Origin: Cyathus striatus
Lineage: Eukaryota; Basidiomycota; Agaricomycetes; Agaricales; Nidulariaceae
DNA length: 64,000 nucleotides
NCBI GenBank assembly: GCA_025738555.1
Contig: JAOVFP010000011.1
Coordinates: 496,001 to 560,000 of the forward strand
Direction: 5' to 3'
Part shown: positions 36,450 through 64,000 of the stretch, in pieces
Position numbering within the stretch: position 1 is the stretch's first letter
Layout of the letters: each line of letters starts with the position of its first letter
Made by a program: the position numbers and the translations under genes
The notes under the pieces: model-generated
The model's input: the letters and a program-made list of their open reading frames with translations, nothing else
Databases searched by the model: none
Told to the model about the DNA's origin: nothing

Positions 36450-37799
36450 GATTCTTACTTGTTGAACGTTACTGCTGTTAAAAGGGCAAAGAGGGTGACT
36501 AGGGAGTAATAGCTATGAAACTACGTAAAGGTCATCACTTACTCTTGCTAACAATCAAGCAGTGGGCGAGTCCAGGGAATATCTTCAGAATACACAAGGT
36601 GATTCTGGGCAAGGGAGGGATGAACACACTACAATATTCACTTGTAATCTATAATGCTTGTAATCACTAATAATAAACTAAGCTTCTTTGAGGTCCTGGG
36701 AGGGCTTAGATCACACTGGGTTTTTACACTCAGAAATTGAATAGATTATCACGAATACACTAAATAGCACTGATAGTGGAAGGAATCGATACAGGATTGC
36801 TTGGTTCTACATGAGCAGGTTTGTGAGTCTTATATACTACTGGAAAAGCGGAGTTCTTAGGTACTGTAAAGGTACTGTACAGGTATAGCAGATGTCTAGA
36901 TAAGGTAATTAACTACGATGCTGGGCGGAGGGACATGTGCGAAGGTTTGGATAGGAGAGCATTGGACTTAACTCCTCAAAAGGGGCGGGCATGCATGATA
37001 ATAGAGACACACTTATTGGCTGATGCACATGTCTTAGATGCCCTGTCGCATCGCAGGCCTAAAGATAGAACCATTGGCAACCACGGCTTCGGGTATATGG
37101 TCTGTTCGCTTCGATTGGTAGATCAGGGTGAGATCTCATTTGCAAGATGCTGAGGACTGATCTGGGTTGAGTCCAGAGTAGCGGCAATGGCTGTTGGTGC
37201 TTGATAGGTGCCTTGATGCTGTTGGCTTCTTTGGGTAAGTTGCACTGCCGGAACCATCCTGTGACCCAGATGTGTCGCATTACCACGTGCTTATGGTGGA
37301 TCAAGTGCTGCTGGGGTTCTATATACATGCTTTCCTGCTAATCCCTTATTATAATCACTATTGCTTTTAGATCTGTTCACTATGTCCTTGGTGGTGGTGA
37401 CTATAAATAGCATGATCGTTGGCAGTTCAGACCTCACTCCAATGCTTAGGTAATCCAATTGTGATCGCAAGTGAGTGATTTATATTATGTTGATATCACA
37501 AAAATTATGCTTATATATGTTGTATGTCCGTCAGGTGTATTAATGTATTTTGAGATCAGATCTCACATTCAAATGTATTTTGCAATTGCACACAGTAAAC
37601 TTTCCCTTATACTATTTATAGATTAGCTGTGAAATCATGATGTCACATACTCAGGAATAAAAATACATGGTGTGAACATTCTATTGCCTTTAAATCTCCA
37701 CATGCCTCATTCCTCTTTCTCTCCCTTACCACTATCATCACCACTCATCCACCCACATCCACTCAGATCAGAGCTTATCACAACTCACTACAACATACT
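36450..37799. other. Spacer between MULE relic and gene B
   Basis: Two overlapping opposite-strand frames (36935-37153 + and 37059-37328 -) show no domain. A region of higher GC (about 36900-37330) inside AT-rich flanks could be an LTR-like or other insert, but no terminal repeats were fixed. Confidence 0.3.
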
Positions 37800-38188
37800 A
37801 TGCCTCATCACAGATCTACTAGGAACAAATCCACCAACATTAATGCCACTACAGCCAGTGGCAATACTGACAATCCACCAGAACCTTCAAATACTTGCAA
37901 GTGCACTGTCTCTTCCACTGAAGATACTACTCAACCTGCTAAAAAGAAGGGCAAAAAGGAGAGTACTGTAGAAGAAGAATCTGAGGGAAACAGTGCTAAG
38001 AAGAGGAAAGGAAAGAAGGGAAGAGGACAGTATGTAATAATTCAGTTATAAAATCGCATTTTAATCATTTTTAATTTTCTTTTCAGTAAATCTGCAACAC
38101 AGCATATTGCTGAAGATGCTAGTGCCAGCTCACCAGTTAAGTTGACAAGGGCTGAACAAAATATCATTGATGATGGCACCTCTGTTGC
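37800..38188 (+). pseudogene. Gene B fragment 1: N-terminal low-complexity exons of a CxC5/CxC6 gene
   Basis: Exon 1 (37800-38029, MPHHRSTRNKS start, Lys/Glu/Thr-rich) joins exon 2 across a 57-nt GT-AG intron at 38030-38086. Exon 2 ends inside ...IIDDGTSVA, where element A is inserted. Removing element A together with one copy of its 10-bp target duplication continues directly as APPKQICNVVV at 45086 in the same frame. The polar, disordered character matches the downstream fragment. Confidence 0.75.
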
Positions 38189-38199
38189 AGTATGTTGCA

Positions 38200-38570
38200 C
38201 TCTCCCACAGTTATCAATGGACTCTCACTGGACTCTCACCAGACTATTGAGAGTCTCACTGGACTATCGAGACTTCAGTGAGTCTCTCACTACACTATCA
38301 GTAGTCTCAGTGAGACTATTCTCACTGTATTCTCACTGTACTCTCACTGTACTCTCACTTTTAAAACTGCTGTCAACCTCAAATTTGTATAATCTCACTG
38401 TACTCTCACTGTACTCTCACTGTATTCTCACTGTACTCTCACTGTATTCTCACTGTACTCTCACTGTACTCTCACTGTAATTTCAGTTTCTAAATGCTTT
38501 CCAACCTCAAATATGCATATTCTTACTATAATCTCACTGTACTCTCACTGTATTATCAATTTTGAAGCTG
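38200..38570. repeat. Subterminal CTCTCACTGTA repeats of element A (left)
   Basis: The core (T)CTCACTGTA repeats about 20 times with interspersed CTCACTGGACTCTC variants. The opposite end of element A (44790-45050) and the left part of element C (58440-58660) carry the same CTCACTGGA/TCTC theme. Such subterminal arrays are typical transposase-binding regions; that role is inferred. Confidence 0.8.
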
Positions 38571-38949
38571 CTGTCAATATCAGATATGTATATAAAGTGA
38601 AATATATACATCTTGTTGGAGAGTTTCTAAAGTGATCTTATAACTTATCACTACAATACAACAAATAGTTATCACATTCAGCTATATAGTTGTGATATAA
38701 GTCCATGCATTTGATATAACCCATCAGAGGTGCAATAAAAAATTAAAACAAGATAATAAATGTGAATATGTCCATGCTCTTAACATAACAAGTCAGTGGA
38801 GCAGATAAAGTTTGTATTTAAAAATGGGAATTGAGGGAAGTGAGTCATATCAAAGGTGGAAATGAAGTAATAGAAGGAAAGAACTACATAGAAGTGGGAG
38901 AACATAACTGAAGGGGCTGAAATACAAAAATCAAAAAAATACAAAGTAC

Positions 38950-41900
38950 TTAGACATCAATATCCAATCCATAATCTGCTATTCCTTCATCTTCTTCTCT
39001 GTCATATTCATCTGCTGCTTCCTCTCTGTCATATATATCTTCTGCTTCCTCTTCTGCTTCCTCTTCCTCTTCCACATCAGAATTATCAGATTCATCTTCT
39101 ATAATATCTTCATCATCTTGAGTACTATCATTCCTTTCAAGTTGCTTCTTAATAACCTTTTGTGTATGAATAAATAGAAGTGCATGTATGGTCCAGTTGA
39201 AGTTAATAACAGTCATTCTGTTAAGCATGTTCTGAAACCCTCCAAGCCATGCATTTAATTGCTCACAAGCCTGTATGGAAGTATTAAATAAAGTTATACA
39301 TATACTAATATGAAATTCTTCTTACCTGATTATTGAAGGCTCTTTTATAATGTGGTCTTCCATGAATATCATTTTCCACTACAACTAAGTTGGGTGCAGA
39401 CCCATTTAAAGGTGCTGGGTTGCACCATTTACGACATGTATAATCAGTTGTTCTATGGTTAACATAATGATATGAATCAACAATAAATCTAGTTGTTAGA
39501 CTCCAAATTCTCCATGCACCATTTAGCACAGCATTTTTTAGCACTACACATGCTTTGTCAATACAGACATAGCTTGGACAAGATTCAAGAGTTGGATAGA
39601 CATGATCTAAAAATCTCATAATATTTCCAGGTCCTTCAGATTTTGTAAACTTGGTCCATGCAATAACTGCTCCACATGGTGCACATAATGTCTCAACACA
39701 GTAAAATCGAGGAGCAATAAAGTAATGATTTCGCTCCTCATGTGGTGCAGGAGCATCATCATGAGGCATTACTTGCCGGTTTATACGAGGAAGCCAATCT
39801 ACTCATTCCTCTTCACTTCTTCGAATAAGTCTTCTTATTCCTAGAAGTGTTTGCTGACCAAATCTTACAAGATGGTTGCACCATCGTGACTGATGATTAA
39901 TACATGTTTTAGAGTTTTGTTCTTTGGGGTTGTTACATGATTTTATATGACATATGTGACCACGCATAGCTTGATGATACATACAGAATACACCTGTTCT
40001 TTCATTTTCTAAACTATTATCACAGTTCTCATATGCACAATGTCTTGGGCCCATAATTATCCCATCCATAACAACCATATTTACTATTGGTTTCTCAGCT
40101 TGATTTGATTGACTTGTATTTAGTACATTATTAGATGATTCATTGGATGATTCACTTGACAGTTTATTGTCAATATCCATATCATTGGTTGTACTGTTGG
40201 TTTGTTGAATTTGTTGCCGAGAAAGTGCTCTAGCTTCAATTTCCTCTCTCATTGATTGTTCAGCATCTTCACTCTGTAAAATTGGAACTGTTTGATTTTC
40301 ATCAATTCCAGCTACTGCAGCTGGAGTATCATCAGTTATTCTATCTGGAGTACTTTTATAGTCATGTGTACATTCACTACATGAATGATCTTTAGCACAT
40401 GCAATAATTCCTTCCTGTCCAAGTATTTTAAATGCTTTTCTAGTTAACTCTTGTATGTCACGCTCATCAGATGTTATAACAAGTGTTTTATCATTATATG
40501 TTGCTACCTGTCTTACACTTTCAGAAATAAATGCCTGCCAAGTCTGTCTACGAGACAGATTAAATGCTGATTCTCTAAAGCATTCATTCCAAAATTCTGC
40601 AAATGCAGCTGTAGATGCATGAAAATGATAAATTCCTTGAAGAACTGCATTTGTATAGCATCTGTCTGCCCAGACTTGCTGTCCAAGCTTTACATATTTT
40701 GCAGAGTTCTTTAATCCTTTTATCCGTGTGCCATTTGTATGTTTTACACTTTTATGATCTGCATAGTAAAATGAATTACAATGCTTGCATTTCCCTTTCA
40801 GAACATAGGCACTGCTGTAAGGATGCATTCTTTTTATAAGTGTTACACATGAAACATCTCGTTTGCAGACTTCTTGGTAAAGTGGTACCCCATCACATGA
40901 TGGTGTTGAGAAAGTATAACGGCTTGGACAAATAGTAAAGACTGGTTCAATTTCCATAGTTTTTACAGCATTTAAAGGATGACCTTTTATAATTGGATCT
41001 AGTGCTAAAATTACTGCAAATAAATCAAGTTTTGAGCCCAATGAATTTATTTTCTGTATATTGGTTAAATTTCCAGCAGCAGCAGATTCATCTTCAGTAA
41101 ATAGATAATTAATCTTATCATTTATATCTCTTTGTAGAACTCTAATAAAAGCATTAATCCAACTTGTTGTAGGTTTTTTATATGCTTGTTTTTGACATCC
41201 ATGGAGATTCAATAGATCTGTGTTATTTATTAATGTGAATAACAGTTTGAGTACCACTGCTAGTGTAATGTCTGTATGGAAGTTGCTGGTGATAAATTCA
41301 GAAAAACCTGAAAATTTTATTTCTGGAAATGGATCTTGCACTGGAGAAGATGCCCATGCTTTTGGAATGCATGATATAAAGGCATAAAATGTGAAAAGCC
41401 AAATAAAAGAGTGCCAGAAACTACAGAATTTTAAGTTAGCTTATTATCCTTGCAGAATTAAACAAACACATCAAGAGATATGTATTTGAATTATAGTACA
41501 AGGAAAAACTGTTCAAGTTTATAATGTACATGTTGAATACTTGTTGAAAGTATAACTAAATCATAATACAAATTGCTCTATGTTGTACTTGTTGAAAATA
41601 CAACATTGAGATAAATAGTAATGAAAGTAAAACAAGTATACAATGGAAAAATTCAAGTCCATACTGTTGAAGTAAAATATAGTACATATCTTGCATGCTT
41701 GTTGAAAGAATGTAAGATAAATAACAATTAATACAGAACTTACAGTCCATACTGTTGAAAGTAGGACCTAAGTTGAAAAAGAAATATTGTACAAGTGCTA
41801 CATACTTGTTGAAAGTATGTATACACATAATGGATAAAACACTGACACTAAATGTAAACAAAAAGAAAGTTAAATGAAAATCTTACAGGTCTCTGCTCTT

Positions 41901-42976
41901 CTTTCTCTTTCCATCCTTCCGTTTCTCCTTCTCCTTCTCCTTTCCTTTAGTTTGTTCTCTTGCTCTTTCTTTTCCCTTTCCTTTCCCCTTGTCTTTGCTT
42001 TTCACATTGTTAGAAATCTCCTCATCTTCTGAAGTCTCTCTTGCATTTTTCTTAGCAGCCTTCTGCTGTTTCTCAATCTTATTAAGAATTGTCTTTAACA
42101 TATCTTGAGTTTGTGACTTTCCTCTCCAAACCTCATAATCAGAGATGCCCTCTTTTCCCTGAAGCCAAAGCTCCATTTGAGGATAAAGATGAAGTCTTAC
42201 AAATACACCCTTCCACCTGTAGTATGCTGGTACTGACATAAATATTGGTGCAATGACATATATACCAGGTAATTTTCCTTTCCATTTTCCACCAGAAATT
42301 AATGATGGAAGTTGCTTAATAATATTTTCAATGAATAATCATTTGGCATAGTTCACATGTATATTCACAACACCATGATCACGTAAAGCACTAGGAATCT
42401 TAAATAGATCAATTAACTTTTGCTGATCTGTGCTTGATTCCCTTAACTTAGAGGTGGAAGGTGTTGAAGTATCCACATTGGAATCTGATGGAACACTAGA
42501 TATATTTGATGTTTTTGTTGTACCAAAACCATCCTAAATTCCAGTTAAGTTATGTACTAGTTCTGAAATGAATTGTGACTTACAAGTAAAATCTTGCAAT
42601 ATGTATTTTTATTTATATCTAAGTTCCATTCTACTTGCTGGTTTGTATCATTTAATAACTCTGAATATTGGCCAGTAAAATTCCATCCTTCACTTTCCCA
42701 TAAAAATATATATGGATTGGATGCTTCAATCAACTTATACTTTTGCCCAATATATTTCAAAATCTTAGATAGAAGGACTTGAATTTCAATTTTTTGAAAT
42801 GAAAATATTGGATCAGGAGCTGAGAAATCATTGTAAATATGTAGAGCTCCAGTGGATAAAATTGCATTAGATGCAATCTCTGATGTTGTATCACTATCTC
42901 CCATATTATAATTATTTCCAATTGCATTCTGGCGACTGTGTCCACCAGTGATCTTTGAGGCACCTTGAAGATCCAT
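38950..42976 (-). pseudogene. CxC5/CxC6 cysteine-cluster protein of element A (possible transposase)
   Basis: Exons on the minus strand: 42976-42584 (MDLQGASK start), then 42534-41883 (first intron 50 nt), whose product ends in a Lys/Glu-rich tail. The main exon follows from about 41341 to 39326, then 39270-38950. Within the 512-residue stretch of the main exon, CxC5-like features are C138...C149, a CKHC knuckle at 185-188 and HSCSEC at 319-324. CxC6-like features are C435/C440/C453/H456 and C464/H465/C469/C480/H483. Downstream come CAPCGAVIAWTKF, CIDKAC, VDSYHYVNHR, CRKWCNPAP and CEQLNAWLGG, then a tail of Glu/Asp runs. The Asp residues in CIDKAC and VDSYHY are candidate metal ligands. In-frame TGA codons at 42341-42339 and 39805-39803 interrupt it. 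Whether the first two exons are spliced to the CxC5 exon or form a separate gene is unresolved. Confidence 0.78.
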
Positions 42977-43213
42977 AGATATATCGTGATGGGGGGGAAA
43001 GGGAAGGAACTTGACAACACAGGTGCTTCTATATAATATATACAGCGAGACATCACAAGGTTCAATTTATAAATAGCATATGGCAAGAAATCATTCAAGT
43101 TTCCATATAGGTCCTGCTGTTCTCGTCAACTGACAATTGTCAGGACAAAAATACCACAGGACCAAAAGGAAACATCTGCCGAAGCAGAGAATAACCAAAA
43201 ATTCTCCCACACA

Positions 43214-44150
43214 TCAAAGTGTATGCAGGACAAATATATTGCGGCGCAACAAGAACAGCACACGGCACAATGAGAACATGGAGAAGGGGGGGGGAGTATG
43301 CGCATACAGGGAGGGAGAGAACAGGACATGACACAGCGCAATGGGAATCAGCATAACGGGAACACAGCAAGGGGTACAAGAAAATGAGAGGGGAGGAAGG
43401 TGCACAGTATAATGACAACACAGTGAGGGTAGGGGGGTACGCGCAGATGAGGGGGGAGGATGGTGTACGGCATAATGAAAACACAGCAAGAGAGGGGAGG
43501 GGTATGTGAAAACGGAGGGGGAGAGAACAGCACATAGCGGAACGAGAACACAGCGGATGGGGTACATGCAGATGAGAGGAGAACGATGCACAGTGTAACG
43601 AGAACACCACGATGAGGGGGGGGGTACGTGCAAGCGAGGGGGGATGGTGCACGGCGTAACGAGAACACAACAATGGGAGGTATGTGCAGACGAGGGGGTA
43701 TGCACCAACAAGGGGAGGACGATGCATAGCATAATGAGAACACCATGGCGAGGGGGGGTGGGGTACATGCCAGCAAGGGGGGATGGTGCACAGTGTAATG
43801 AGAACACAACAATGGGAGGTACGTGCAGACGAGGGGAGGACGATGCATAGAATAAGAACACCACGGCGAGGGGGGGGGGACGTGCCAGCGAGGGGGGATG
43901 GTGCATGGCGTAACGAGAACACAATGAAGGGGGGTATGTGCAGACGAGGGAGGTACACGCCAATGAGGGGAGAACAATATGCAGCGTAACAAGAACACCA
44001 CGGCGAGGGGGGGTATGTGCCAGCGAGGGGGGAGGACGGTGCACAGTGTCATGAGAACTCGGCGAGGGTGGGTACACGCAGATGAGGGGGGATGGTGCAC
44101 AGTGTAACAGAAAACAGCGAGGCAGGATGCATGCAGATGAGGGGGGGGAG
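43214..44150. repeat. Minisatellite of element A (about 65-75 bp units)
   Basis: Repeated units contain GGTGCACAG(C/T)GTAA(C/T)GAGAACA, GGGGGTACGTGCAGA or GCCAGCGAGGGG, and runs of G. The same array occurs inverted in element C at about 59290-60240. Long open frames on the minus strand (up to 330 codons, with CSRYAVHHPP-type periodic peptides) are translations of the repeat and are not called as genes. Confidence 0.85.
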
Positions 44151-45085
44151 GACATTGCACAGCGCAACGAGAACATAACCACGGCCATCGATACAAGAAA
44201 TGCACAGTGTTTGTGCTACACAACAGAATCGCACACACATATATCGGCATATGTTGTCCCAGCAAAGACATGCCCCTGCTGCTACAAGACAGAATCGCCC
44301 ACGCATGTCCCGGCATATGGTGTCCGTCGAAGATATGCATCAGGTGCTAAAAAAAAAACAGCGCGAGAGCGAATGAAACATAAAAAAAAACTTACATTGT
44401 CACCCTATCACACAACCCTCAACCCTCCATCACGCTTGTGGTGTACGACACTGCGGGATGACGGAAGGAGCGGAATGAAAAGGCATAAAGCGAGGCCAGG
44501 GAAAAGGTGGGAAAGGGCGAAGGGAGAAAGAGAGGGGAAGAGTGAGTAACGAGTCCGGAAAACTCCACCAAACCCAAATACCATGCACAGACCATCTGCG
44601 CACGGACCATGTCACATGACCATTACGCTAAAAGCCGAAATGATATCTGAAACACGCACAGACCAAGTCACGTGGTATTTGCGCACGGACCATTCACACG
44701 GTCATGTGACCGCTTTGGTGTGGAGAGATCTTATGAAATGTTGTGTGGGAATTTGTGACAACAGAGTTAAGTGTCAGAGACTGTACTGAGAGTCCAGTGA
44801 CTTATTCTCACTAGATTCTCATTGGACTCTCTGAGATTCATCTCATTATAGTATCACTAGACTCTACGAGACTCTCACCCAATGAGAATTTGCTGAGATT
44901 TTAGTGAGATGAAAATTGTTCATTTTCTCAGTGTAGTCTCACCAATGTCTCACTAATATCTCTCCACACTCTCAGATATACCACTAAAGTTAACCTGGAT
45001 TCTCACTGGAGTATCAGAGAATCTCATGAGAATCTCACTGGATTCTACTAAGACTGTGGGTCAGTGTAATGACCTCCTCTGTTGC

Positions 45086-47696
45086 CCCTCCTAAGCAAAT
45101 TTGTAATGTGGTTGTGAGTTTGCTTCCTGCTAGCCAGGCTCCAATTGCTACTAGTGGTCGTATCCATCACTCTGAGGTACTTGATAATGAAAGTACAGAA
45201 AGTGAGAATGCAAATGAAGATACTAGTGCTGGTGAAAATGCCAGTAATAATCCCTCTGATGATCGTGGCAGTGAAATTGAAGAAGTTAGCTCTAAGCACA
45301 ACAAGAGCAATGAGGATACTGGTAACCAGACCAGTAAGGACACTCACAACAAAAACAGTGAGGATACTGGTAATCAGACTAGCAAAGATACTTGCAACAA
45401 GAGCAATGAGGATACTGGTAATCAGACCAGCAAATATACTCACAACAAGAGCAATGAGGATACTGGTGACCAGACCAGCAAGGATGCTCACAACAAGAGC
45501 AGTGAGAATACTGGTAATCAGACCAGTAAGGATACTCAGAAGGATGTGCCCAATATTGAAAGTCTAAGTGAGCATGAAAATACAGATAACTATATAAGTG
45601 ATGTTCACATGGCATCTCCACCAAAGAAAGAGACTTACAATCTACAAGGATCCTCTTGTGTAACTGGTAAGTATCTTATTTCTCTAATATATAATAAAAA
45701 ATAACAAGCTATTTAGGTGGATTTATGTGCCATCATGCACAGGGTAATGTCTATAACAGTGCTGACTTTCTTGAAATTGAGAAGCAGTCAACATATCTAG
45801 AACATGTCAAAGGAATTATATACCTTTACATTTCAAAGCTAGATCCAACAGATTTGAAAGTTATAAACATGAACTCAATGACTTTTATTAAGATCCCTAT
45901 TTCAGTAAACTCAATGGAACCTGTTATGAAAGGACTAGCAAAGAAATATAATCCTATTGCTGATTCTAATAAGTGGTTTTATATTGTTGATAATGACAGC
46001 CCACATTGGCGTCTTTTGGGTAACTTTGAATGTGCCATTGAGGAAAATGAGGAATTTACATGGATTCAGCAAGGAAATTATGTTATACATGTATTACACA
46101 CAGCTGGATTAAGTAAGGAACATTATGTAATTAGCAGCTATTGTTTATCCCCTGTGGTCACAAAGAATACTTGATTTCATGAAGTTCCCAGTTTATTTCC
46201 ACACAACAAAATGTCAAGAAGTTAAATTATGAATGTATAGAGTATATATATTCATTTATAAATACATTTATTCTGCGAAAAATCTCAGAAAAGTTCCCAG
46301 ACTTTCAGTCAAGATTTCTACATCTTGACTGACAATCTCAAGTTCTAGAGAGTGTTCAGTGACAAGTACAGTGATCAAATCTTCACTGATAAACATAGGA
46401 AGATTTCCTGTCCATTATTTAACTGAATATAGATGTATTTGAGTTCAATTCTACATAGATTAACTCTTGTAAATGTTGTGAATATATAATATTTGAGAAT
46501 TTCTAGATAAAAACACTACAAATAGCACTTGCAACCAAGCTTTTATGGTTGCCAAAAGTTCTTTCATGTAAAAGCTTTGTTATATCTGTATCTGATCACT
46601 TTTTATCATGGAAAGTCCCTTTTTCAAAGAAGAAAAGCATTATTCTCTTTTCATAAAAATCAAGTATGCTTTTCTCTAACTATAGTACACTGCAGATATG
46701 ACTTTTTAAGAGTTTTTTATAACCCAAACACCATTTTAGCATTAATTAGTATTCACTGGAATAGATTTTGCAACTGTTACCACTGATTGAGACCCCACAT
46801 AACTTCAGATTGCCAACAGACATGCAAAAATCATAATTAAATTTCTGCACACTATATTGAGGCTTCTTCATGATATAAGCTAGTTCTAACTGCATATACA
46901 TACACTAAACAATCATAACTACACATATGTATAATTATTTGGGGAGAGAACTATTGGAAACTTCATGAAATTCATGTATTTGTCACCAGTATATAGTATA
47001 AACAAGGGCCTCTGATTACATAATATTCCTTACTTAATCCAGCCATGTGTATGTGTAAGTGTTATTTTTATGTATCTTTACAGCTCCAAACTCAACTATA
47101 CAAATAGTCTTCTTTTCATCCTTCAGGTCAAGAAGAGTCAACACTAATTGCAGTTCAGTCTCACTCTGCATCTCTTTCTACTTGCAATCGATCTGTATCA
47201 ATGGCTCCATCTGCTGTAACAGAAGCTGCTGCTGAGCCTCAAGTAATTGCTGCTCGTCTTGGTGTCAGTGCAGATGAACTTAGCTGCACTTTTGAGGATG
47301 GAATTAGAGGCCAATATAAGAAGTACTTGCTGGCTCTTAAGTATCTTGATATATATAACTCAATGGCAAGGAACAACCAATGGCAAGGAAAAGCACTAAG
47401 AAAGAAGGAAATTGTTGATATTTTCCTGTCCTATTCATACTTTCAGTCCAATCACTCAAAGCTTTTTACAAAGCTATCAAATTATTCTCATTTAATGAAA
47501 TGGATGGAGGGAAAAGATGATGCTCCATCTGACATGGAAGCATGGGGATATGAAAAGACCCAAAAATATACATTTGAGGACCTTAAGACATTTTATGAGA
47601 ATGGAGGGACACTTGATCCTGACAGAGCAGTAAGAAAGAAAGTAAAGGGAAAGGGAAAGGGAAAAGTTAAAAGTAAACAGGAGGAGTCAGATGATG

Positions 47697-47728
<32 letters not shown>

Positions 47729-48724
47729 AATGATAATGATAATGAGGATGAGGATGAGGATGAGGATGAGGATGAGGATGATGATGAGGAGGAGGAAATG
47801 GAGAAGAATAAGAATAAGAATAATAAGGGAAAGAACAAGCAAATGGAGAAAGGAAAGGATAAAGGGAAGGGTAAAGGTAAAGAAAAGGATAAGGAAGTTA
47901 AGAAGGCTTCTAAGAAGAAAGCTAAAGAGTAAGCTTATTTTATCTTGAATGAATCTTTTTTTCATTTTTAAAATGTAGTATAAAATTTGAGATCTTTGTA
48001 TTCTATTTCATATGCCAAATTCTTATGCATGTATTCCTTCAAAAAAAAGTGTCTTGTATAGTTTTGTAACTGGATGTTCCATTCTAATGGAATTTGTTCT
48101 TATTTTTACAACACTTTGGAGATTTAAAGATTGGATGAATTTTAAGAATACAACTAAAAATTTGCACATATGGATTATTTTAATAATGTTCCCAGGAGTA
48201 TCAGCAAACATGCAGCCCTTTCCTGATATATCATTTAAAACTTTTAGCAAATTTATCAGTAATAATTATAGTTCAGAAATCTCCTTATCAACAGCCTTAG
48301 TAATACTATTTACAGTTACACACAACTGTGACTTATTAAGTCTTCATGCACAGCAGTACAATCCTAGATATCCTCAGGAGAATAATGTATAAATGACTGC
48401 TTGGATGCTTACCTTATCTCAAGCTTTACAAGAACAACTTGGAGAGAGATGTAACAAATTGTTTAAAGGTGAACCTGGTGACCAAGCAGATACTACTTTG
48501 GCACTGAGCTTGGATAAATTAATGAAGACTCTAAAGCTTAATCCATGTGAATCATCTGGCAAATTTAAAGGAAACTTAAATTTAGTATCTCATAAAGAGA
48601 TTTCACCATCATTTGTTATTTGTCCTGTAACTGCTGTATGTCAAACAAATATATGCCCTCCATTAGCATTGCACTTATCAGCAAGTATAAGAGATATTCC
48701 TCAAGTTACTTTAATTCAGGGTAC
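45086..48724 (+). pseudogene. Gene B fragment 2: disordered region, N-domain, acidic/basic tail and start of CxC5
   Basis: After the element A junction the frame runs to 45666 with repeated NEDTGNQTSKDTHNK-type units. A GT-AG intron (45667-45716) leads to an exon whose KKYNPIADSNKWFYIVDND aligns with KYKLIEASNPYIFLW of element A. A probable long intron (46113-47126) precedes an exon (47127-47928) with a GAT-repeat-coded Asp/Glu run and Lys-rich tail. From about 48196, MQPFPDISFKTFSKFI aligns with MQDPFPEIKFSGFSEFI of element A, continuing to VTLIQG. A TAA at 48389-48391 interrupts it. The frame is then split by the insertion at 48725. Confidence 0.75.
47685..47800. repeat. GAT/GAG trinucleotide microsatellite inside gene B
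   Basis: A run of GATGAT... shifting to GATAAT and GATGAG repeats encodes an Asp/Glu-rich segment in gene B. Frames on the opposite strand (poly-Ser or poly-Ile/Leu) are artefacts of this repeat. Confidence 0.9.
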
Positions 48725-49831
48725 TGATACGCATGTAAATAGAAAGCAATGTACCTAATTTAAAAATTCTTTATATCTCGACTTCGAGATACCAGTACCT
48801 AGCGTGTCGAGTGAGGAAACAGCGGGGAGGGGCTGAGTTCCCGCGCCGCCTCCCATAATTAAACAAGGGATAAATCAAAACCTATTAAAAAACATAACTC
48901 CGCGTTAGTACTGGTTTAAAACCCCTTTAAAAACAAATAAAATACATATCACTTTTACCTTTAAAAACACGACGTTGTACTCTGTACATGAATACCAAGA
49001 AACCAAGAACTAAACTAATGAGGACAAAGTCAATACGACACACAGTGTGGAGTACAGATAAACACGATGACTTACTAAAATCCCTGAGACCCTGAAACCC
49101 TGAGACAAGTGAGACAGAGAGAGAGAGCGCACGAGAAAGGGGGAAGGGAAGCAAGAATGGAAAGAGAACGAGTACCCTAACGGTCAGGAGTTCACGCGGA
49201 AGCGGAAACCCGACCCGAGAGGCCGACATAAATGAAATTGATATGAATGGATGACGCTGCCGCATCGGCTGATTACCCGATTAGGAAGGTAACCGATGGG
49301 ATGCTCAAATGGGCGCGCGTTGCAGAAAGGGAGCGCGCTGGGTTATGCGCACGATTGGCTGACCGCCGCCTGGGCGCTGACGACGCGCTATCTTACACAT
49401 AGGCCAGGGAAACACTGGAGATCAATTATAAATTTATTACTACGCAATTTGTAAGTAAGTAGATAAGAAAAGGTATATAGATGAGCGAGGAGGGAATGAA
49501 ACGGCAGGAACTGCCAGGCATTCTTCCCTCCCATAGACAGGGTGTGTAAAGACGAGAATCAGATATAGTTACGAGACGTTTTGATACCAAGAAATACGTA
49601 CCGCGATACCGAATTAAAATCTGAACTTGACTTTGAATACTTTGACGCGAGAACAAAAATAGCCTAAGTTTAACTTGTCTATTTTTAACTTGATCTAAAT
49701 TTGGACTTGAACACAATTGCGCCCCTCGAACTTACTGACTTCGCACCTCGGGATTTAAAGTTGATTATTATATTTGGGATTTACATTCTAAGTATTTAAT
49801 AAACTAACTACTCTCGTCGCGTGACTCAACA
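48725..49831. mobile_element. LTR-like insertion (probable solo LTR) in gene B
   Basis: Starts TGATACGCATG and ends GACTCAACA, with a GTACTGA direct repeat at 48721-48727 and 49832-49838. Taking TG...CA as ends leaves a 4-bp GTAC duplication. Removing it joins LIQG to TETIKNVQVLTGVCNKC in frame, with exactly the spacing of LIKRMHPYSSAYVLKGKC in element A. It has no coding genes and a GC-rich middle (48800-49400), fitting a solo LTR of about 1.1 kb; other classes are not excluded. Confidence 0.72.
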
Positions 49832-49835
49832 GTAC

Positions 49836-50325
49836 TGAAACAATAAAAAATGTTCAAGTACTTACAGGAGTCTGCAATAAATGTAAAACACAATACTCAG
49901 CTGATAGAGAGAAAGTTTCAATTCCTAATAAAAAAAGTACTTGAGTTTACCTCAATTCTGCAAAGTATGTTAAAGTGGGACAGTCACTGTGGGTGGACAG
50001 AATATTTTCAAATGCAGCTGTCAAAGCAATCTATAGCTTTCATGCATCAGCTGCTGCTTACACTCAATTTTGGAATAATAGCTTTTCTGATGAACAAAGC
50101 ATCACCCGCAGACATATTTGGCAGGCATTCATTCAAGAAACTGTTAGAGCCTTAGCTGCTGCATGAGGCATAAATTTGGAAGTTGAAGATGGTCTTTCAA
50201 TTGATAATCTGATAATCTTACACATGAAGCTTATTCTTTACTTGGTGATAATGGAATCATTCAATCTGCTGATAAGCACACTTGTGCTGAGTGTACACAT
50301 GTCTACCAAGACAGATCTAATGTCA
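49836..50325 (+). pseudogene. Gene B fragment 3: middle of the CxC5 region
   Basis: Continues the CxC5 domain: VLTGVCNKCKTQYSAD, LNSAKYVKVGQSLWVDR, AIYSFHASAAAYTQFW, ITRRHIWQAFIQETVR, then HTCAECTHVYQDRSNV. It aligns residue for residue with element A (CKHC to CNKC, SECTHDY to AECTHVY). Small frame changes and a TGA in the region after 49940 make it non-functional. It ends where the foldback element is inserted. Confidence 0.8.
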
Positions 50326-50444
50326 TAAGTGTCAGCCAATTTGATCACAAATTGCTCAGGAAAAATGAGTGCTAGTGATCCTGATTCTCCACCAAAAAAA
50401 AGAGTGCCATTTTTATAAGGCATATTCAGTAAATGTAATGGAGT

Positions 50445-50895
50445 GGTGATCATTGGCACTCATTTATGTATTGCTATTGACAACTAGGGGATTATATTAG
50501 TATAGTATGAGGACACTCAAAAGTGATCATTTTAAGAATATTAGAAGGTGATCATTGGCACTCATTTATGTATTGTTGTTGATTACTAGGGAATTATATT
50601 AGTATAGTATGAGGACACTCAAAAGTGATCATTTTAAGAATATTAGAAGGTGATCATTGGCACTCATTTATGTATTGTTGTTGATTACTAGGGAATTATA
50701 TTAGTATAGTATGGAGGCACTCAAAAGTGATCATTTTGAGAGCATTAGGAGGTGATCATTGGCACTCATTTATGTATTATGGTTTATTACTAGGGGATAG
50801 TATTAGTATAGAATAAGGGCATTCAAAAGTGATCATTTAATGAATATTAGGAGGTGATCATTGGCACTCATTTATGTATTGCTATTACTGATTAC
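50445..50895. repeat. 102-bp tandem repeat, left foldback arm
   Basis: GGTGATCATTGGCACTCATT starts recur at 50445, 50547, 50649, 50751 and 50853, an exact 102-bp period. Inverted copies make up 52340-52476 and 53698-54010 in the right arm. Confidence 0.95.
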
Positions 50896-51372
50896 TAGTT
50901 GATCTGCGCTTCGCATTTGTCACATACTTCCTGCGTGTCACGTTGGTCACACATATTCCTGCGCCTCATATTTTCCCGCACACATATTCCCGCGCTTCGT
51001 ATTTGTCACATATTTCCTGCGTGTCACATCCGTCACATATATTCCCGCGCTTCGCATTTGTCACATACTTCTTGCGTGTCACATCCGTCACATATGTTCC
51101 CGCGCTTCACATCTGTCACATATTTCCTTCGCGTCACGTTCGTCACATATATTCCCACGCATCACATTTGTCACATTCTTCCCGCGCGTCACGTTCGTCA
51201 CACATTTGTTACAATTTTCACGCGTGTCACGTCTGTCACAATTCTGTCACGCTTTAGCGCGTTTGTCACGCTTTGTATGCGTGTCACGCGTCACGTTTGT
51301 CACGTTCTTTATGAGCGTTACGCTTTTATGCATGTCACACGTGTCACGTCTTTGAGGTGCGTCATGCCGTGA
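50896..51372. repeat. GTCAC-rich satellite, left foldback arm
   Basis: Units of about 55 bp (two half-units) pair a TTTGTCACATACTTCC half with a CGTCACATATATTCCCGCGC half. The reverse-complement array at 51643-52330 is longer (about 690 bp), so unit number differs between arms. Overlapping frames up to 222 codons here are repeat translations. Confidence 0.9.
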
Positions 51373-51642
51373 CAATCTGCATGCATGTCACACTTTTCAC
51401 ATGTTATATATGTCATTTTTAAAAAATGCATCATGTATTTTTCATGCATGTCACATTTTTCAAGTGCATTACAACTTTTTCACAAATATCATGCTTTCCA
51501 ATCACATTAGATTTTTTATCTCTACCACTATTCAAGTTGTCATGAGAGTGGAGTAAGTATTTAATGGTATGGAGTAAATTATATATGCAGAGGAAACAAT
51601 ATGTACTTGTAGAATTGAAGATTGTAATATGGAAAATAACAA

Positions 51643-52330
51643 TTAAAAGTTATAGAAGTGTGGTAGTGACATGCATAAAAGCGTAACGCTCATAAAGAAC
51701 GTGACAAACGTGACGCGTGACGCGCATACAAAGCGTGACAAACGCGCTAAAGCGTGACAGAATTGTGACAGACGTGACACGCGTGAAAATTGTAACAAAT
51801 GTGTGACGAACGTGACGCGCGGGAAGAATGTGACAAATGTGATGCGTGGGAATATATGTGACGAACGTGACGCGAAGGAAATATGTGACAGATGTGAAGC
51901 GCGGGAACATATGTGACGGATGTGACACGCAAGAAGTATGTGACAAATGCGAAGCGCGGGAATATATGTGACGGATGTGACACGCAAGAAGTATGTGACA
52001 AATGCGAAGCGCGGGAATATATGTGACGGATGTGACACGCAGGAAATATGTGACAAATACGAAGCGCGGGAATATGTGTGACAAACGTGACGCGCGTGAA
52101 GTACGTGACAAATATGAAGCGCGGGAATATGTGTGACGAACGTGACGCGCGTGAAGTACGTGACAGATGTGATGCGCGGGAAAAACACGAGGCGCGGGAA
52201 TATATGTGACCAACGTGACACGCGTGAAGTACGTGACAAATGCGATGCGCGGGAAAATATGAGGCGTGGGAATATGTGTGACCAACGTGACACGCGGGAA
52301 GTATGTGACAAATGCGAAGCGCAGATCTAC
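51643..52330. repeat. GTCAC-rich satellite, right foldback arm
   Basis: Reverse complement of the left arm satellite, with AATATATGTGACGGATGTGA and GAAGCGCGGG units and extra copies. The outermost unit (TAGATCTGCGCTTCGC read in reverse) matches the left arm start near 50900. Confidence 0.9.
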
Positions 52331-52476
52331 TAGTAATCAGTAATAGCAATACATAAATGAGTGCCAATGATCACCTCCTAATATTCATTAAATGATCACT
52401 TTTGAGTGCCCTTATTCTATACTAATACTATCCCCTAGTAATAAACCATAATACATAAATGAGTGCCAATGATCAC

Positions 52477-53697
52477 CCCCAGTGAAAAATCAGTCTAGTG
52501 AGTTCAAGTGACACCTAGTGAGATATAGGTTTCAGACCCCATCTAGCGCTGTTGATGAAAACCTTGATGGTCCTAGAAACAAGTTCTTGGCATATATGAA
52601 TCAGCATAGTGCGGGAAAAAGTTCAGTCAAGTGAAATCTAAGAATACCTAGGGAGATCAAGCGCATTCGAGTGCCAATGGAATGGAGCAAAGGGTGTTGA
52701 TGAATTTGGAAAATTTTAATGCAAATCCATCATTTCCTTCCCCAATATAACGGTGGCTTATTCGCAGAACACGGCTTGCTGTTCCTTTTCCCCCAACTAC
52801 TACCTCGCTCTCTCTCATTCTGCCAGCAATGCACTGAAGCCACCTTTTTAAGCCTCTGCATGTCTCTTACGGTGTTCAGGTGGATATTGGATATGTTGGT
52901 AAGTACAGTCACTATACTGTATCTGGTCACGGACTAACCAACCTAACATTAACAGTGGATTTTACTAAACGCTTGCGCAGTGGTGCGCAGCGCATCACTT
53001 CAACACCTCAAAAGGTAGCTCAATCGCAATATGTGTCAACACATGTTACCACACGTTCCAGTACATGGTGGCTGGCATTCACCCACATCATCCCTCCTCC
53101 CACCTGCGTCGCAACGACGATGACGCCACCCACCCATCCCACCACCTCATCGCAGCAATGATGCCACCACACCCAGCTACCCTCCTCATCCCTCTTCTCT
53201 CCTGCGTCGCGACAAAGACGACGATGCCACATCACCCAGCCCCCCCTCATCTCACCTCTCTCCCTGCGTTGTGACGATGACAAAGAGAATTTGGGATGGG
53301 GACGCTTCTGTATGTGGTATTCAAATGTCTATAGAGGTAGCCGCATGCATAGTAATTTACATTAGGTTTACATGCTGTATCTGTAATCTGTAGATATATT
53401 CTCAATATATGTCATTTTTTGCTCTGCAATCCTAGTAGTGTGAACATAAGAATCCAATTTGCACCTAGATTGAGATGAAGAAGTCCATAGATGTTGCTAT
53501 AATGGACTATGACTCACTAGAGAAGATATCTATGGAAAATATATCATTTTCTGCACTTGTGACTAGGCTAGATGAGCTTCGATGTCACTAGAAAAAACAT
53601 CTAGGTATTCTCATTTTTATATGCACATCTAGTCACAGCTAGGCTCTAGATTTCGCTAGGTTACACATGATGTCCCTAGATGGACTTCTCACTGGGG
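52477..53697. mobile_element. 1,221-bp TIR element nested in the foldback arm
   Basis: The ends are CCCCAGTGAAAAATCAGTCT and the complement of CCCCAGTGAGAAGTCCATCT; over 22 bp they match at 18 positions. The 5-bp duplication ATCAC lies at 52472-52476 and 53698-53702. The opposite arm has the uninterrupted sequence at about 50740-50762 (AGCATTAGGAGGTGATCATT), proving the insertion. Interior: many CTAGNGA/CATCTAG motifs near both ends and a C-rich segment (53080-53280) related to the dispersed C-rich repeat. No transposase. Confidence 0.92.
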
Positions 53698-54130
53698 ATC
53701 ACCTCCTAATGCTCTCAAAATGATCACTTTTGAGTGCCTCCATACTATACTAATATAATTCCCTAGTAATCAACAACAATACATAAATGAGTGCCAATGA
53801 TCACCTTCTAATATTCTTAAAATGATCACTTTTGAGTGTCCCCATACTATACTAATATAATTCCCTAGTAATCAACAACAATACATAAATGAGTGCCAAT
53901 GATCACCTTCTAATATTCTTAAAATGATCACTTTTGAGTGTCCTCATACTATACTAATATAATCCCCTAGTTGTCAATAGCAATACATAAATGAGTGCCA
54001 ATGATCACCACTCCATTACATTTACTGAATATGCCTTATAAAAATGGCACTCTTTTTTTTGGTGGAGAATCAGGATCACTAGCACTCATTTTTCCTGAGC
54101 AATTTGTGATCAAATTGGCTGACACCACTC

Positions 54131-55333
54131 CTAATGTGACATCAGAAGTTGACTCTGCTGGTGTGGTAGGAATTGATGAAAACTGATCAGTTCCTGATCT
54201 TGTACAATCAGAAAGTACCCAGTAAGATATGAATTCTGTAAATGTACAAGCAGCAGTAGCAGACATGGAAAATAATGATTCTACAATAAATGAGAATGAG
54301 TATGCACCTGTAAAAATGGTGGTACTGGATGGTATTATAATGGGCCCAACACACTGTGCATTTGAAGGGTGTACAAGTGAGTTGCATAATAGCCTTTTAT
54401 GGTGCATGCTGTCATATTCAAGGTTGCACTAATATGAAAAAGCAAGGTACACAGGCTTGTAATGATCACCAAGCTGAGTGGAAAAGATTTCAATCAACTC
54501 GTCATTCTTCTTATCAAGCTGGTGTAAGGAGAATGCTTCACTGCCCAGGAGAACAGAATGAATGGAGTACAGTTAGACCAAGAAAGTCCCAGCCACATGA
54601 TGAACCACAACAATCAGCAAATAGAAAAATAAAAAACTACTTTACTCCAGGCAAATACTACTGTGTTGAGACAATATGTGCACCTTGTGGAGTGGTTATT
54701 GCCTGGACAAAATTTGAGGATGCTGAATCACCATACAATATCATGAAGTTTCTTGAGGAGGTATTCCCTACTGAAGAATCTAGACCAGATTATGTATGTA
54801 TTGATAAGACATGCTTGGTTCTAAGATATCTTCATGAAGATCAAAGAGAGCAGTGGAATACATGGAAAAAAACTACAAGGTTTAGTGTGGACAGCTATCA
54901 TTACACAGGATACAGAGTTTCAGATTATCTCTGCAGAATATTTTGTAATCCTGCACCATTAGATGGATCAGCTCCAAATCTGGTGATTACTGACTTTGAT
55001 AAGAATGGACATCCATATTTTAAAAGAGCTTTTAATACACAGGTAAGAGCATATATAATAATGATATAAAATGTTTTAATAACTACTTTTTAATAATAGG
55101 CATGTGAACAGCTCAATGCTTGGCTTGGTGGCTTTGAATTGATTTTTTTTAAAATGGCACCACATAACTTTGATTGGTTTCTGCATGCCATGTTATTTTA
55201 TCATAGCAAACATGTTATACAAAGGCAGGAAAAAAGAAAGAGACAGGAAGCTACTGATATTGAAGTGCAAGGTGATGTAGTAGATGATGATGATGATGAT
55301 GATAGTGTTCCAGCTGATGATATTGTTCTTTAA
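54131..55333 (+). pseudogene. Gene B fragment 4: CxC6 region and C-terminal domain
   Basis: Follows the foldback element. VVGIDEN is followed by TGA (54184-54186) and TAA (54223-54225), then VVLDGIIMGPTHCAFEGC begins the CxC6 cluster. A frameshift near 54390 moves the frame to CCHIQGCTNMKKQGTQACNDH. The conserved C-terminal part is intact: CVETICAPCGVVIAWTKFED, CIDKTCLVL, FSVDSYHYTGYRVSDYLC, RIFCNPAPLDGSAPNL. An intron (about 55043-55100) leads to ACEQLNAWLGGFEL and a short acidic tail ending at 55333. It aligns throughout with element A at moderate divergence, so B is an older, separate lineage. Confidence 0.82.
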
Positions 55334-55429
55334 AAAAATACATACATAGTTTTACATTTTAGACAACTATAGGTAGAAATAATTATGAATTAACAGTTTT
55401 TGTAGTGTTCATTGAGATTTTAAACAGGA

Positions 55430-56030
55430 AAATTAAAGTATTAAACAGATCTTACAGATTCTGCATAAATCCACACAGAATCCATGCAGAATACTGGAGA
55501 CTTTCGACCGATTGTTCGGTCACGCGTCACGCAGGGCCTCCGAACAGAACAATTTAGTCCGGTTGTCACGCATCACAGGCAGCCGCGAACAAAGGTTCTG
55601 TGAAACTAAAAGACTGATTTTTTTTCCAAAAAACTTCAATTATTTTTCACAAAATACAAGTGCTCTGTTACATTAGAATGGTCTAATTTCTCTTCAAAGT
55701 CTTCCTAGATTGTAGAAATTTTTTATGATCACCGTGAGATGTGAACAAATTTTATGCTAGTCACGCTTCAAACCGGGAGGTGAACAGAACAATGAATGAA
55801 CTTTTGTGTCACGCTGAAAAATCGCCGAACAATCGGTCGAAAGTCTCCAGTATGTATGGAATGTGCACAGAATTATCACCTATAATAATAAAAATAGCCA
55901 CTATATAAATTCTGTATGGTATCTATACAGGTCTGTATGGGTCTGTACGGATCCGCACAGAATCTGTACAGATCTGTATGGAATTTTCGGATTCTGTGTG
56001 TATTCCATACAGATCTCTTGGGGGAGTGTA
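55430..56030. repeat. TCTGTACAG-rich repeat, inverted relative to 29787-30010
   Basis: Reverse complement of the block at 29787-30010, sharing the TTGGGGGAGTGTAAATTAC end, GGATCCGCACAGAATCTGTA core and TATAATAATAAAAATAGC AT-rich part. It is interrupted by MITE 4. It directly follows the 3' end of gene B. Confidence 0.8.
55494..55850. mobile_element. MITE 4: TA-flanked palindromic element, 357 bp
   Basis: The inverted ends CTGGAGACTTTCGACCGATT run about 26 bp perfectly, with TA at 55492-55493 and 55851-55852. The empty site is the related repeat copy at 29971-29985, where TTCCATACATATTCTGCATG has one TA at 29977-29978. It is related to MITEs 1 and 2 by GACTTTCGACC and TGTTCGG ends and TCACGC motifs near the ends. 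Confidence 0.92.
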
Positions 56031-56079
56031 AATTACTGAAATAATTCGAGTTTCACCTGCTGGGAGTTACATATGAAGT

Positions 56080-60240: not shown

Positions 60241-60522
60241 TGCACTTCGGTGCATGAGATATATTAGTCCTACTTACACTTTTGTGTGTGGGTAGAATGC
60301 AAGGTTATTCTCTGCTTCGGCAGATGTTTCCTTTTGGTCCTGTGGTATTTTTGTCCTGACAATTGTCAGTTGACGAGAACAGCAGGACCTATATGGAAAC
60401 TTGAATGATTTCTTGCTATATGCTATTTATAAATTGAACCTTGTGATGTCTCGCTGTATATATTATATAGAAGCACCTGTGTTGTCAAGTTCCTTCCCTT
60501 TCCCCCCCATCACGATATATCT

Positions 60523-63500
60523 ATGGATCTTCAAGGTGCCTCAAAGATCACTGGTGGACACAGTCGCCAGAATGCAATTGGAAATAATTATAATATGGGA
60601 GATAGTGATACAACATCAGAGATTGCATCTAATGCAATTTTATCCACTGGAGCTCTACATATTTACAATGATTTCTCAGCTCCTGATCCAATATTTTCAT
60701 TTCAAAAAATTGAAATTCAAGTCCTTCTATCTAAGATTTTGAAATATATTGGGCAAAAGTATAAGTTGATTGAAGCATCCAATCCATATATATTTTTATG
60801 GGAAAGTGAAGGATGGAATTTTACTGGCCAATATTCAGAGTTATTAAATGATACAAACCAGCAAGTAGAATGGAACTTAGATATAAATAAAAATACATAT
60901 TGCAAGATTTTACTTGTAAGTCACAATTCATTTCAGAACTAGTACATAACTTAACTGGAATTTAGGATGGTTTTGGTACAACAAAAACATCAAATATATC
61001 TAGTGTTCCATCAGATTCCAATGTGGATACTTCAACACCTTCCACCTCTAAGTTAAGGGAATCAAGCACAGATCAGCAAAAGTTAATTGATCTATTTAAG
61101 ATTCCTAGTGCTTTACGTGATCATGGTGTTGTGAATATACATGTGAACTATGCCAAATGATTATTCATTGAAAATATTATTAAGCAACTTCCATCATTAA
61201 TTTCTGGTGGAAAATGGAAAGGAAAATTACCTGGTATATATGTCATTGCACCAATATTTATGTCAGTACCAGCATACTACAGGTGGAAGGGTGTATTTGT
61301 AAGACTTCATCTTTATCCTCAAATGGAGCTTTGGCTTCAGGGAAAAGAGGGCATCTCTGATTATGAGGTTTGGAGAGGAAAGTCACAAACTCAAGATATG
61401 TTAAAGACAATTCTTAATAAGATTGAGAAACAGCAGAAGGCTGCTAAGAAAAATGCAAGAGAGACTTCAGAAGATGAGGAGATTTCTAACAATGTGAAAA
61501 GCAAAGACAAGGGGAAAGGAAAGGGAAAAGAAAGAGCAAGAGAACAAACTAAAGGAAAGGAGAAGGAGAAGGAGAAACGGAAGGATGGAAAGAGAAAGAA
61601 GAGCAGAGACCTGTAAGATTTTCATTTAACTTTCTTTTTGTTTACATTTAGTGTCAGTGTTTTATCCATTATGTGTATACATACTTTCAACAAGTATGTA
61701 GCACTTGTACAATATTTCTTTTTCAACTTAGGTCCTACTTTCAACAGTATGGACTGTAAGTTCTGTATTAATTGTTATTTATCTTACATTCTTTCAACAA
61801 GCATGCAAGATATGTACTATATTTTACTTCAACAGTATGGACTTGAATTTTTCCATTGTATACTTGTTTTACTTTCATTACTATTTATCTCAATGTTGTA
61901 TTTTCAACAAGTACAACATAGAGCAATTTGTATTATGATTTAGTTATACTTTCAACAAGTATTCAACATGTACATTATAAACTTGAACAGTTTTTCCTTG
62001 TACTATAATTCAAATACATATCTCTTGATGTGTTTGTTTAATTCTGCAAGGATAATAAGCTAACTTAAAATTCTGTAGTTTCTGGCACTCTTTTATTTGG
62101 CTTTTCACATTTTATGCCTTTATATCATGCATTCCAAAAGCATGGGCATCTTCTCCAGTGCAAGATCCATTTCCAGAAATAAAATTTTCAGGTTTTTCTG
62201 AATTTATCACCAGCAACTTCCATACAGACATTACACTAGCAGTGGTACTCAAACTGTTATTCACATTAATAAATAACACAGATCTATTGAATCTCCATGG
62301 ATGTCAAAAACAAGCATATAAAAAACCTACAACAAGTTGGATTAATGCTTTTATTAGAGTTCTACAAAGAGATATAAATGATAAGATTAATTATCTATTT
62401 ACTGAAGATGAATCTGCTGCTGCTGGAAATTTAACCAATATACAGAAAATAAATTCATTGGGCTCAAAACTTGATTTATTTGCAGTAATTTTAGCACTAG
62501 ATCCAATTATAAAAGGTCATCCTTTAAATGCTGTAAAAACTATGGAAATTGAACCAGTCTTTACTATTTGTCCAAGCCGTTATACTTTCTCAACACCATC
62601 ATGTGATGGGGTACCACTTTACCAAGAAGTCTGCAAACGAGATGTTTCATGTGTAACACTTATAAAAAGAATGCATCCTTACAGCAGTGCCTATGTTCTG
62701 AAAGGGAAATGCAAGCATTGTAATTCATTTTACTATGCAGATCATAAAAGTGTAAAACATACAAATGGCACACGGATAAAAGGATTAAAGAACTCTGCAA
62801 AATATGTAAAGCTTGGACAGCAAGTCTGGGCAGACAGATGCTATACAAATGCAGTTCTTCAAGGAATTTATCATTTTCATGCATCTACAGCTGCATTTGC
62901 AGAATTTTGGAATGAATGCTTTAGAGAATCAGCATTTAATCTGTCTCGTAGACAGACTTGGCAGGCATTTATTTCTGAAAGTGTAAGACAGGTAGCAACA
63001 TATAATGATAAAACACTTGTTATAACATCTGATGAGCGTGACATACAAGAGTTAACTAGAAAAGCATTTAAAATACTTGGACAGGAAGGAATTATTGCAT
63101 GTGCTAAAGATCATTCATGTAGTGAATGTACACATGACTATAAAAGTACTCCAGATAGAATAACTGATGATACTCCAGCTGCAGTAGCTGGAATTGATGA
63201 AAATCAAACAGTTCCAATTTTACAGAGTGAAGATGCTGAACAATCAATGAGAGAGGAAATTGAAGCTAGAGCACTTTCTCGGCAACAAATTCAACAAACC
63301 AACAGTACAACCAATGATATGGATATTGACAATAAACTGTCAAGTGAATCATCCAATGAATCATCTAATAATGTACTAAATACAAGTCAATCAAATCAAG
63401 CTGAGAAACCAATAGTAAATATGGTTGTTATGGATGGGATAATTATGGGCCCAAGACATTGTGCATATGAGAACTGTGATAATAGTTTAGAAAATGAAAG

Positions 63501-64000
63501 AACAGGTGTATTCTGTATGTATCATCAAGCTATGCGTGGTCACATATGTCATATAAAATCATGTAACAACCCCAAAGAACAAAACTCTAAAACATGTATT
63601 AATCATCAGTCACGATGGTGCAACCATCTTGTAAGATTTGGTCAGCAAACACTTCTAGGAATAAGAAGACTTATTCGAAGAAGTGAAGAGGAATGAGTAG
63701 ATTGGCTTCCTCGTATAAACCGGCAAGTAATGCCTCATGATGATGCTCCTGCACCACATGAGGAGCGAAATCATTACTTTATTGCTCCTCGATTTTACTG
63801 TGTTGAGACATTATGTGCACCATGTGGAGCAGTTATTGCATGGACCAAGTTTACAAAATCTGAAGGACCTGGAAATATTATGAGATTTTTAGATCATGTC
63901 TATCCAACTCTTGAATCTTGTCCAAGCTATGTCTGTATTGACAAAGCATGTGTAGTGCTAAAAAATGCTGTGCTAAATGGTGCATGGAGAATTTGGAGTC
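60523..64000 (+). pseudogene. CxC5/CxC6 protein of element C, truncated by window end
   Basis: Exons 60523-60915 and 60966-61616 (intron 50 nt) encode the N-terminal domain with the Lys/Glu-rich tail. A 512-codon stretch at 62158-63696 with CxC5 and CxC6 clusters follows, continuing past a TGA (63694-63696) through VDWLPRINRQVMPHDD and CVETLCAPCGAVIAWTKF to the window edge. The predicted peptides are identical to element A over all shared frames, including the TGA at 61158-61160. A donor-like GTAAG at 61613 sits at the end of the Lys-rich tail, as it does in gene B (47929), so splicing of the two parts is possible. Confidence 0.8.

Follow-up and report, generated by a model that had tools for sequence, protein, structure and literature searches.

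A nested CxC5/CxC6 transposon of Cyathus striatus and its probable transposase

CxC5 and CxC6 are two zinc-binding cysteine clusters, and the protein that carries them is known until now for these clusters. Pfam labels both as "associated with KDZ transposases". In sporeless Pleurotus ostreatus, a 6,792-bp insert with a 739-amino-acid (aa) CxC5/CxC6 open reading frame (ORF) interrupts poMSH4, and an exact inverted copy of it lies 23 kb away (PMC7641404). This is the one paper that we found on a CxC5/CxC6 insert; in the part of it that concerns the insert, neither a transposase nor a KDZ transposon is seen near the CxC5/CxC6 ORFs and a retrotransposon, Copia, is proposed to be involved (PMC7641404). 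None of the literature searched gives the CxC5/CxC6 protein a transposase role, and the founding KDZ work may already say more. Here we describe a 64,000-bp stretch of the Cyathus striatus genome (C11:496001-560000, the window), in which a CxC5/CxC6 element, element A, is nested in an older relative, element B. The CxC5/CxC6 protein is very probably the transposase of element A, which would be a cut-and-paste DNA transposon of a diverged, KDZ-linked lineage. This reading draws on ends, 8-bp duplications, empty sites, constrained open frames and conserved residues, all read from sequence, and on a modelled fold; catalysis, DNA recognition and what CxC5, CxC6 and the accessory proteins do are what we infer.

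Ends, target duplication and empty sites of element A

Element A is a real transposon with base-exact ends and an 8-bp target duplication. It occupies 38188..45076 (6,889 bp, genes on the - strand), runs 5'-CAGTATGTTG...ATGACCTC-3' and shares these ends with 15 further copies. The first-pass annotation of this DNA had proposed exact ends together with a 10-bp duplication, and the 10-mer CCTCTGTTGC is indeed found at both 38179-38188 and 45076-45085. The exact ends held, while the size had to be revised. Copies were located in the genome (107 Mb, 24 contigs) by means of the terminal bases at either end of element A, giving 20 further stretches picked from match lists; 16 copies with both ends, the window included, entered the duplication count, and L035, L036, L038, L039 and L040, which lacked one end or part of one within the stretch, were omitted. 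The ends, C/AGTATGTTG (C/AGTATG) and GACCT/C, are the same in the copies examined; differing ends would have spoken against the transposon. Comparison of the flanks revealed an 8-bp duplication in 13 of the 16 copies, perfect in 12 and matching at 7 of 8 bases in the thirteenth; the copies without it are L026, whose 3' end is lost, L031 and L034. Across the 13 duplicated copies each of the eight positions agrees in 12-13, while the adjoining base on either side agrees in 4/13, approximately as by chance, and the 10-bp size was thus rejected. Offset +9 agrees in 8/13 copies, without explanation. In the window the duplication CTCTGTTG, placed by comparison of copies at 38180..38187 on the left and 45077..45084 on the right (neither assigned to a strand), resembles 10 bp because both bases adjoining it happen to agree there.

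All four paralogues examined (L048-L051) have the left and right flanks contiguous with no insert, with 97-99% identity to the window over 220 bp on the left and 95-97% over 200 bp on the right. The empty sites of one locus do not discriminate between 8 and 10 bp, and the size was therefore decided by the other copies.

The termini form an imperfect inverted repeat (38188..38212, + strand; 45052..45076, - strand) in which 16 of 25 bases match (shuffles, 5e-5). The annotation had also noted subterminal repeats, and these were recovered: TCTCACTG is concentrated at the left of the window element, with 15 occurrences in the leftmost 450 bp compared to 0 in the middle and 2 in the rightmost 450 bp, and it occurs 1-16 times per copy at the left end (15 copies counted). 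The TCTCACTG-rich stretch at 38210..38570 (+ strand) is a plausible transposase binding region. Besides, element A contains a G-rich, minisatellite-like region of imperfect repeats of about 55-60 bp (43250-44170), which is also present in other copies, there as long spurious ORFs.

The CxC5/CxC6 protein as candidate transposase

The main open part of the CxC5/CxC6 frame lies on the - strand at 39326..41440. Pfam profile searches confirmed its identity, with CxC5 (PF18718; 40577..40945, - strand) at 8.5e-20 and CxC6 (PF18721; 39881..40072, - strand) at 3.3e-18. A 55-nt GT-AG intron (39271..39325, - strand), deduced from the frame and from homologues, would precede a last exon at 38950..39270 (- strand). 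Upstream are the remains of one or more accessory genes (41883..43066, - strand), in which 1,114 bp are missing at 42985/42986 relative to L021. Six copies (L023, L024, L025, L028, L030 and L037) have open frames and measure 8.0-8.2 kb. Their CxC5/CxC6 frame, of 711-834 aa, is preceded on the same strand by accessory frames that abound in lysine and acidic residues and gave no informative Pfam match.

The CxC5/CxC6 frame is under purifying selection, as judged from the ratio of nonsynonymous to synonymous substitution, which is 0.20-0.28 between open copies of two subfamilies and higher and scattered, up to 1.84, for damaged copies. L023 and L024 show no synonymous difference across 668 codons and sit at different targets, and movement is therefore recent. 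A gene spanning all three putative catalytic positions is present in 12 of the 16 copies. It is absent from L032, L033 and L034, which are reduced to the end regions, and from L022 (C21:1046450-1053430), which combines an internal deletion with a 2.8-kb insert, has no transposase and is flanked by a perfect 8-bp duplication. Three of these four gene-less copies have perfect duplications; such copies have therefore moved, presumably in trans. As the annotation had anticipated, the CxC5/CxC6 protein was the only candidate enzyme, no other transposase being found in the 16 copies scanned: the KDZ profile run against their 1074 ORFs (>=40 aa) returned nothing better than E 0.61. In the genome, 877 places are candidates for the protein of this large multicopy family; 80 of these were scored and 98 matches returned. 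Named protein matches come from mushroom-forming fungi, e.g. Pleurotus, Amanita and Cyathus.

An RNase-H-like fold had been suggested, and prediction agrees: two structure models, both of CxC5/CxC6 proteins, display an integrase-like, RNase-H-like Asp-Asp-Glu (DDE) core, and re-alignment in the VIA tables found this core to resemble retroviral integrases and the Tn5 and ISCth4 transposases at the level of the fold. No hAT or RAG structure was among the 50 VIA/Foldseek rows listed, which excludes nothing, and the sole matches in a sequence search of solved structures were three channel sequences, all unrelated, at E 0.095. Two Asp-containing motifs had been singled out in the annotation. CIDKAC indeed holds the putative second catalytic Asp (codon 39557..39559, - strand; D591 in P0019, a P. 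ostreatus protein of 740 aa), while in the models the first is more likely the D of VVMDGIIMG (codon 40064..40066, - strand; D419) than that of VDSYHYVNHR. The invariant E of CVETIC had been considered as first catalytic residue and was dropped for D419 after the models. The acidic residue after CIDKAC, a putative catalytic Glu, would be the E of ACEQLNAW, which lies beyond the intron in the last exon (codon 39262-39264; E671).

The D, D and E, with D-x2-C and H-x3-H between the second D and the E, are invariant columns in A1 (44 of 120 listed proteins, chosen among those of more than 600 aa with an [AV]CEQ motif) and in A2 (25 of 39 proteins). The order agrees with that of KDZ, as a match of motifs only. 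As A1 was chosen partly by the [AV]CEQ motif, the residues were recounted over all 120 proteins.

Several observations weigh against the CxC5/CxC6 protein being a DDE transposase linked to KDZ. The VIA tables re-align structures picked by Foldseek, which on its own gave no match at E <=0.001; its best hits, 3.7e-3 and 3.0e-2, are both to a phage terminase nuclease, itself an RNase-H-like enzyme. The models were built on shallow alignments, of 44 and 47 rows. Rows of A1 and A4 were selected partly on the CEQ motif, and in the recount the third acidic residue is a gap in 38/120 proteins and another letter in 4/120; the gaps probably reflect gene models that end at the intron just before it. The window copy is itself broken, with a TGA at 39803-39805 in the transposase frame and another at 42339-42341 in the accessory frame. 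Finally, direct profile comparison of the CxC5/CxC6 core with KDZ is not significant (hhalign, P 0.14-0.19), and a profile hidden Markov model (HMM) search performed no better than reversed sequences.

It is improbable, given these data, that the CxC5/CxC6 protein is merely an accessory DNA-binding factor and that canonical CxC2-KDZ transposases move the element in trans. At least 159 Pfam KDZ matches are listed in the same genome, the Pfam names of the two clusters would suit such a role and the short gene-less copies have moved; however, an integrase-like core with conserved acidic residues is predicted in the protein itself, which is subject to purifying selection, and a KDZ gene is found in none of the 16 copies.

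With the CxC5/CxC6 protein as transposase, element A would belong to a large CxC5/CxC6 family of cut-and-paste DNA transposons. The enzyme would be an RNase-H-like DDE protein whose catalytic fold carries the CxC6 zinc cluster between strands 1 and 2; CxC5 would lie in the N-terminal part of the protein. Helical and zinc-binding regions would most likely recognise the subterminal repeats, cleavage would take place at the CAGTA...CTC ends, and joining 8 bp apart in the target would leave the 8-bp duplications. Lysine-rich accessory proteins would be encoded beside the transposase, and the lineage would be a diverged relative of KDZ linked through CxC4 proteins.

Element B and other features of the window

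The remainder of element B extends over 37542..56038 (+ strand), with its right end at 56038 (...GAGTGTAAATTACTG) and a left end truncated at about 37542. The annotation had placed the insertion inside a CxC5/CxC6 gene. What is hit is instead an accessory gene of a CxC5/CxC6 element, with a product that matches nothing in Pfam: its left part (MPHHRSTRN...; 37800..38187, + strand) and right part (45077..46174, + strand) are separated by element A, and the CxC5/CxC6 frame of element B begins some 3 kb downstream from the insertion point. The approximate limits of this transposase gene are 48192..55330 (+ strand), and it is broken by further insertions. The last exon of the interrupted gene and a second accessory frame at 47108..47932 (+ strand), which resembles the lysine-rich frame of element A, resemble accessory frames of intact A copies (single-pair BLASTP, 1e-5 and 3e-9). 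In the lysine-rich frames of both A (41883) and B (47932) the stop codon overlaps a GTAAG donor-like sequence, and splicing may join this frame to the transposase exon; with the simple acceptor sites that were tried by eye, the reading frame was lost.

An intact B copy (C6:1511627-1520394, 8,768 bp) is flanked by a perfect 8-bp duplication, CCATTTTC, and its ends resemble those of element A, with CAGTAATTTACACTC against CAGTATGTTGCACTC at one end and GAGCTCTTTACACTGAGCCA against GAGGTCATTACACTGACCCA at the other. Paralogues L053 and L054 revealed further inserts in the window element B. One, at 50324-54130, has long inverted arms, is foldback-like and is flanked by a 7-bp duplication, CTAATGT; two small inserts (46097-47049 and 55494-55850) have inverted ends and TA duplications, like miniature inverted-repeat transposable elements, and an insert of about 1.1 kb (48731-49831) has near-identical GTACTG-type sequence at both flanks.

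The region from 60259 to 64000 (to the equivalent of 65938 in L035) is an inverted near-copy of 37560-43239, 99.8% identical. It takes in 628 bp of the element B sequence next to element A and is therefore a duplicated or converted tract; a second independent insertion of element A was rejected on account of this shared flank. Beyond the tract, the right half is only 82% similar.

Relation to KDZ, CxC4 and other described systems

Target duplications are given as 8 bp in Zisupton, in the Dileera element Zisupton-1_PGr and in hAT, as 7 bp with no inverted repeats in Kyakuja, and as 2-5 bp in EnSpm/Transib/Plavaka (CMCT) (PMC12730594). The KDZ-type size is matched by the 13 duplicated A copies and by one copy of subfamily B, while the 8 bp of element A lie outside the CMCT range.

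Among the 44 A1 members the Pfam KDZ profile (PF18758) had no match up to E 10, and it had none in the L028 ORF. A lead to CxC4 came from a weak KDZ match in the C. striatus genome, which scored 30.1 bits against a cut-off of 26.6 (L052, L055). In A3 (40 of 120 listed CxC4 proteins), Pfam KDZ matched 29/40 members (best 5e-6), the first of them falling below the curated cut-off. Reciprocal HMM searches between CxC5/CxC6 and CxC4 cores recovered 28/120 proteins at E 0.01 each way, with 0/120 for reversed sequences in both directions, and 101/120 and 119/120 at E 1, with 1 and 4 for reversed ones; the sequences are related and these counts are not independent. The hhalign comparison gave P 0.0038 over 117 columns (0.0064 when exchanged; reversed control 0.38), with D-x2-C, H-x3-H and E in register. 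Between CxC4 and KDZ, hhalign gave P 0.0013 and the KDZ core profile found 1/120 CxC4 proteins at E 0.01 and 27/120 at E 1 (reversed, 0 and 1), while the CxC4 profile against KDZ proteins was no better than reversed sequences (best 0.055 vs 0.035). Full-length alignments were weaker (CxC5/CxC6-CxC4, P 0.14; CxC4-KDZ, P 0.022), and a merged CxC5/6 and CxC4 profile reached 0.017 against KDZ (reversed, 0.072). We read these similarities as one superfamily of CxC5/CxC6, CxC4 and KDZ with CxC4 in the middle, the step from CxC4 to KDZ resting mainly on the Pfam result. The earlier suggestion of an undescribed or poorly described family thus stands insofar as Pfam KDZ misses these proteins, but not as to their isolation, since CxC4 proteins tie their core to the KDZ superfamily.

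The same comparisons make a hAT-like lineage highly improbable. Duplications of 8 bp with a 5'-CAG start are typical of hAT, and copies of element A have both; however, no hAT family was among the Pfam matches of the 44 members up to E 10, the order D-x2-C, H-x3-H, E follows KDZ and CxC4, and the profiles link CxC5/CxC6 to CxC4. Copia duplications are usually about 5 bp. For the related insert in Pleurotus, where co-localisation with Copia elements is reported, carriage by a Copia retrotransposon has been proposed (PMC7641404). Such an origin of element A can be set aside as extremely improbable in view of the CAGTA...CTC ends, the 8-bp duplications, the conserved subterminal repeats, the imperfect inverted repeats and the shortened internal-deletion copies that retain both ends.

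Should the CxC5/CxC6 protein prove to be the transposase, the multicopy family would gain an enzyme, exact ends and a duplication size, annotation pipelines could find it, and the natural sporeless mutation of the oyster mushroom could be tested as an instance of ordinary cut-and-paste transposition. A broader proposal is offered tentatively, as one that we consider possible and somewhat doubtful: CxC5/CxC6 would be a DDE superfamily of its own, sister to CxC4 and KDZ, with an unusual architecture that combines a CxC6 zinc cluster within the RNase H fold, another treble of conserved H and C residues ahead of the final helix, and an operon-like block of conserved accessory genes. This superfamily would constitute a major, mostly unannotated class of mobile DNA in mushroom-forming fungi and would have caused the sporeless oyster mushroom mutation.

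Among described systems, the poMSH4 insert can be likened to element A by its description and its ORF; P0019 is 61% identical to the CxC5/CxC6 core query over 97% of that query, and the inverted near-copy in the window is reminiscent of the exact inverted copy described 23 kb from the poMSH4 insert (PMC7641404). The likeness to retroviral integrases, Tn5 and ISCth4 is one of modelled fold only, sequence similarity being not detectable. CxC4 proteins (PF18717, annotated as KDZ-associated) are alike in the core, with C..., D-x2-C, ID/VD-x2-H-x3-H and N-[TS]-x2-x-E, but differ in another N-terminal cysteine domain, in having no CxC5/CxC6 among the listed domains and in a shorter stretch from H-x3-H to E. 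With KDZ, element A and its protein share D-x2-C after the second Asp, H-x3-H followed by E, cysteine clusters in the protein and 8-bp duplications; in contrast to KDZ, CxC6 is predicted to lie inside the catalytic fold, and C-x3-C follows H-x3-H.

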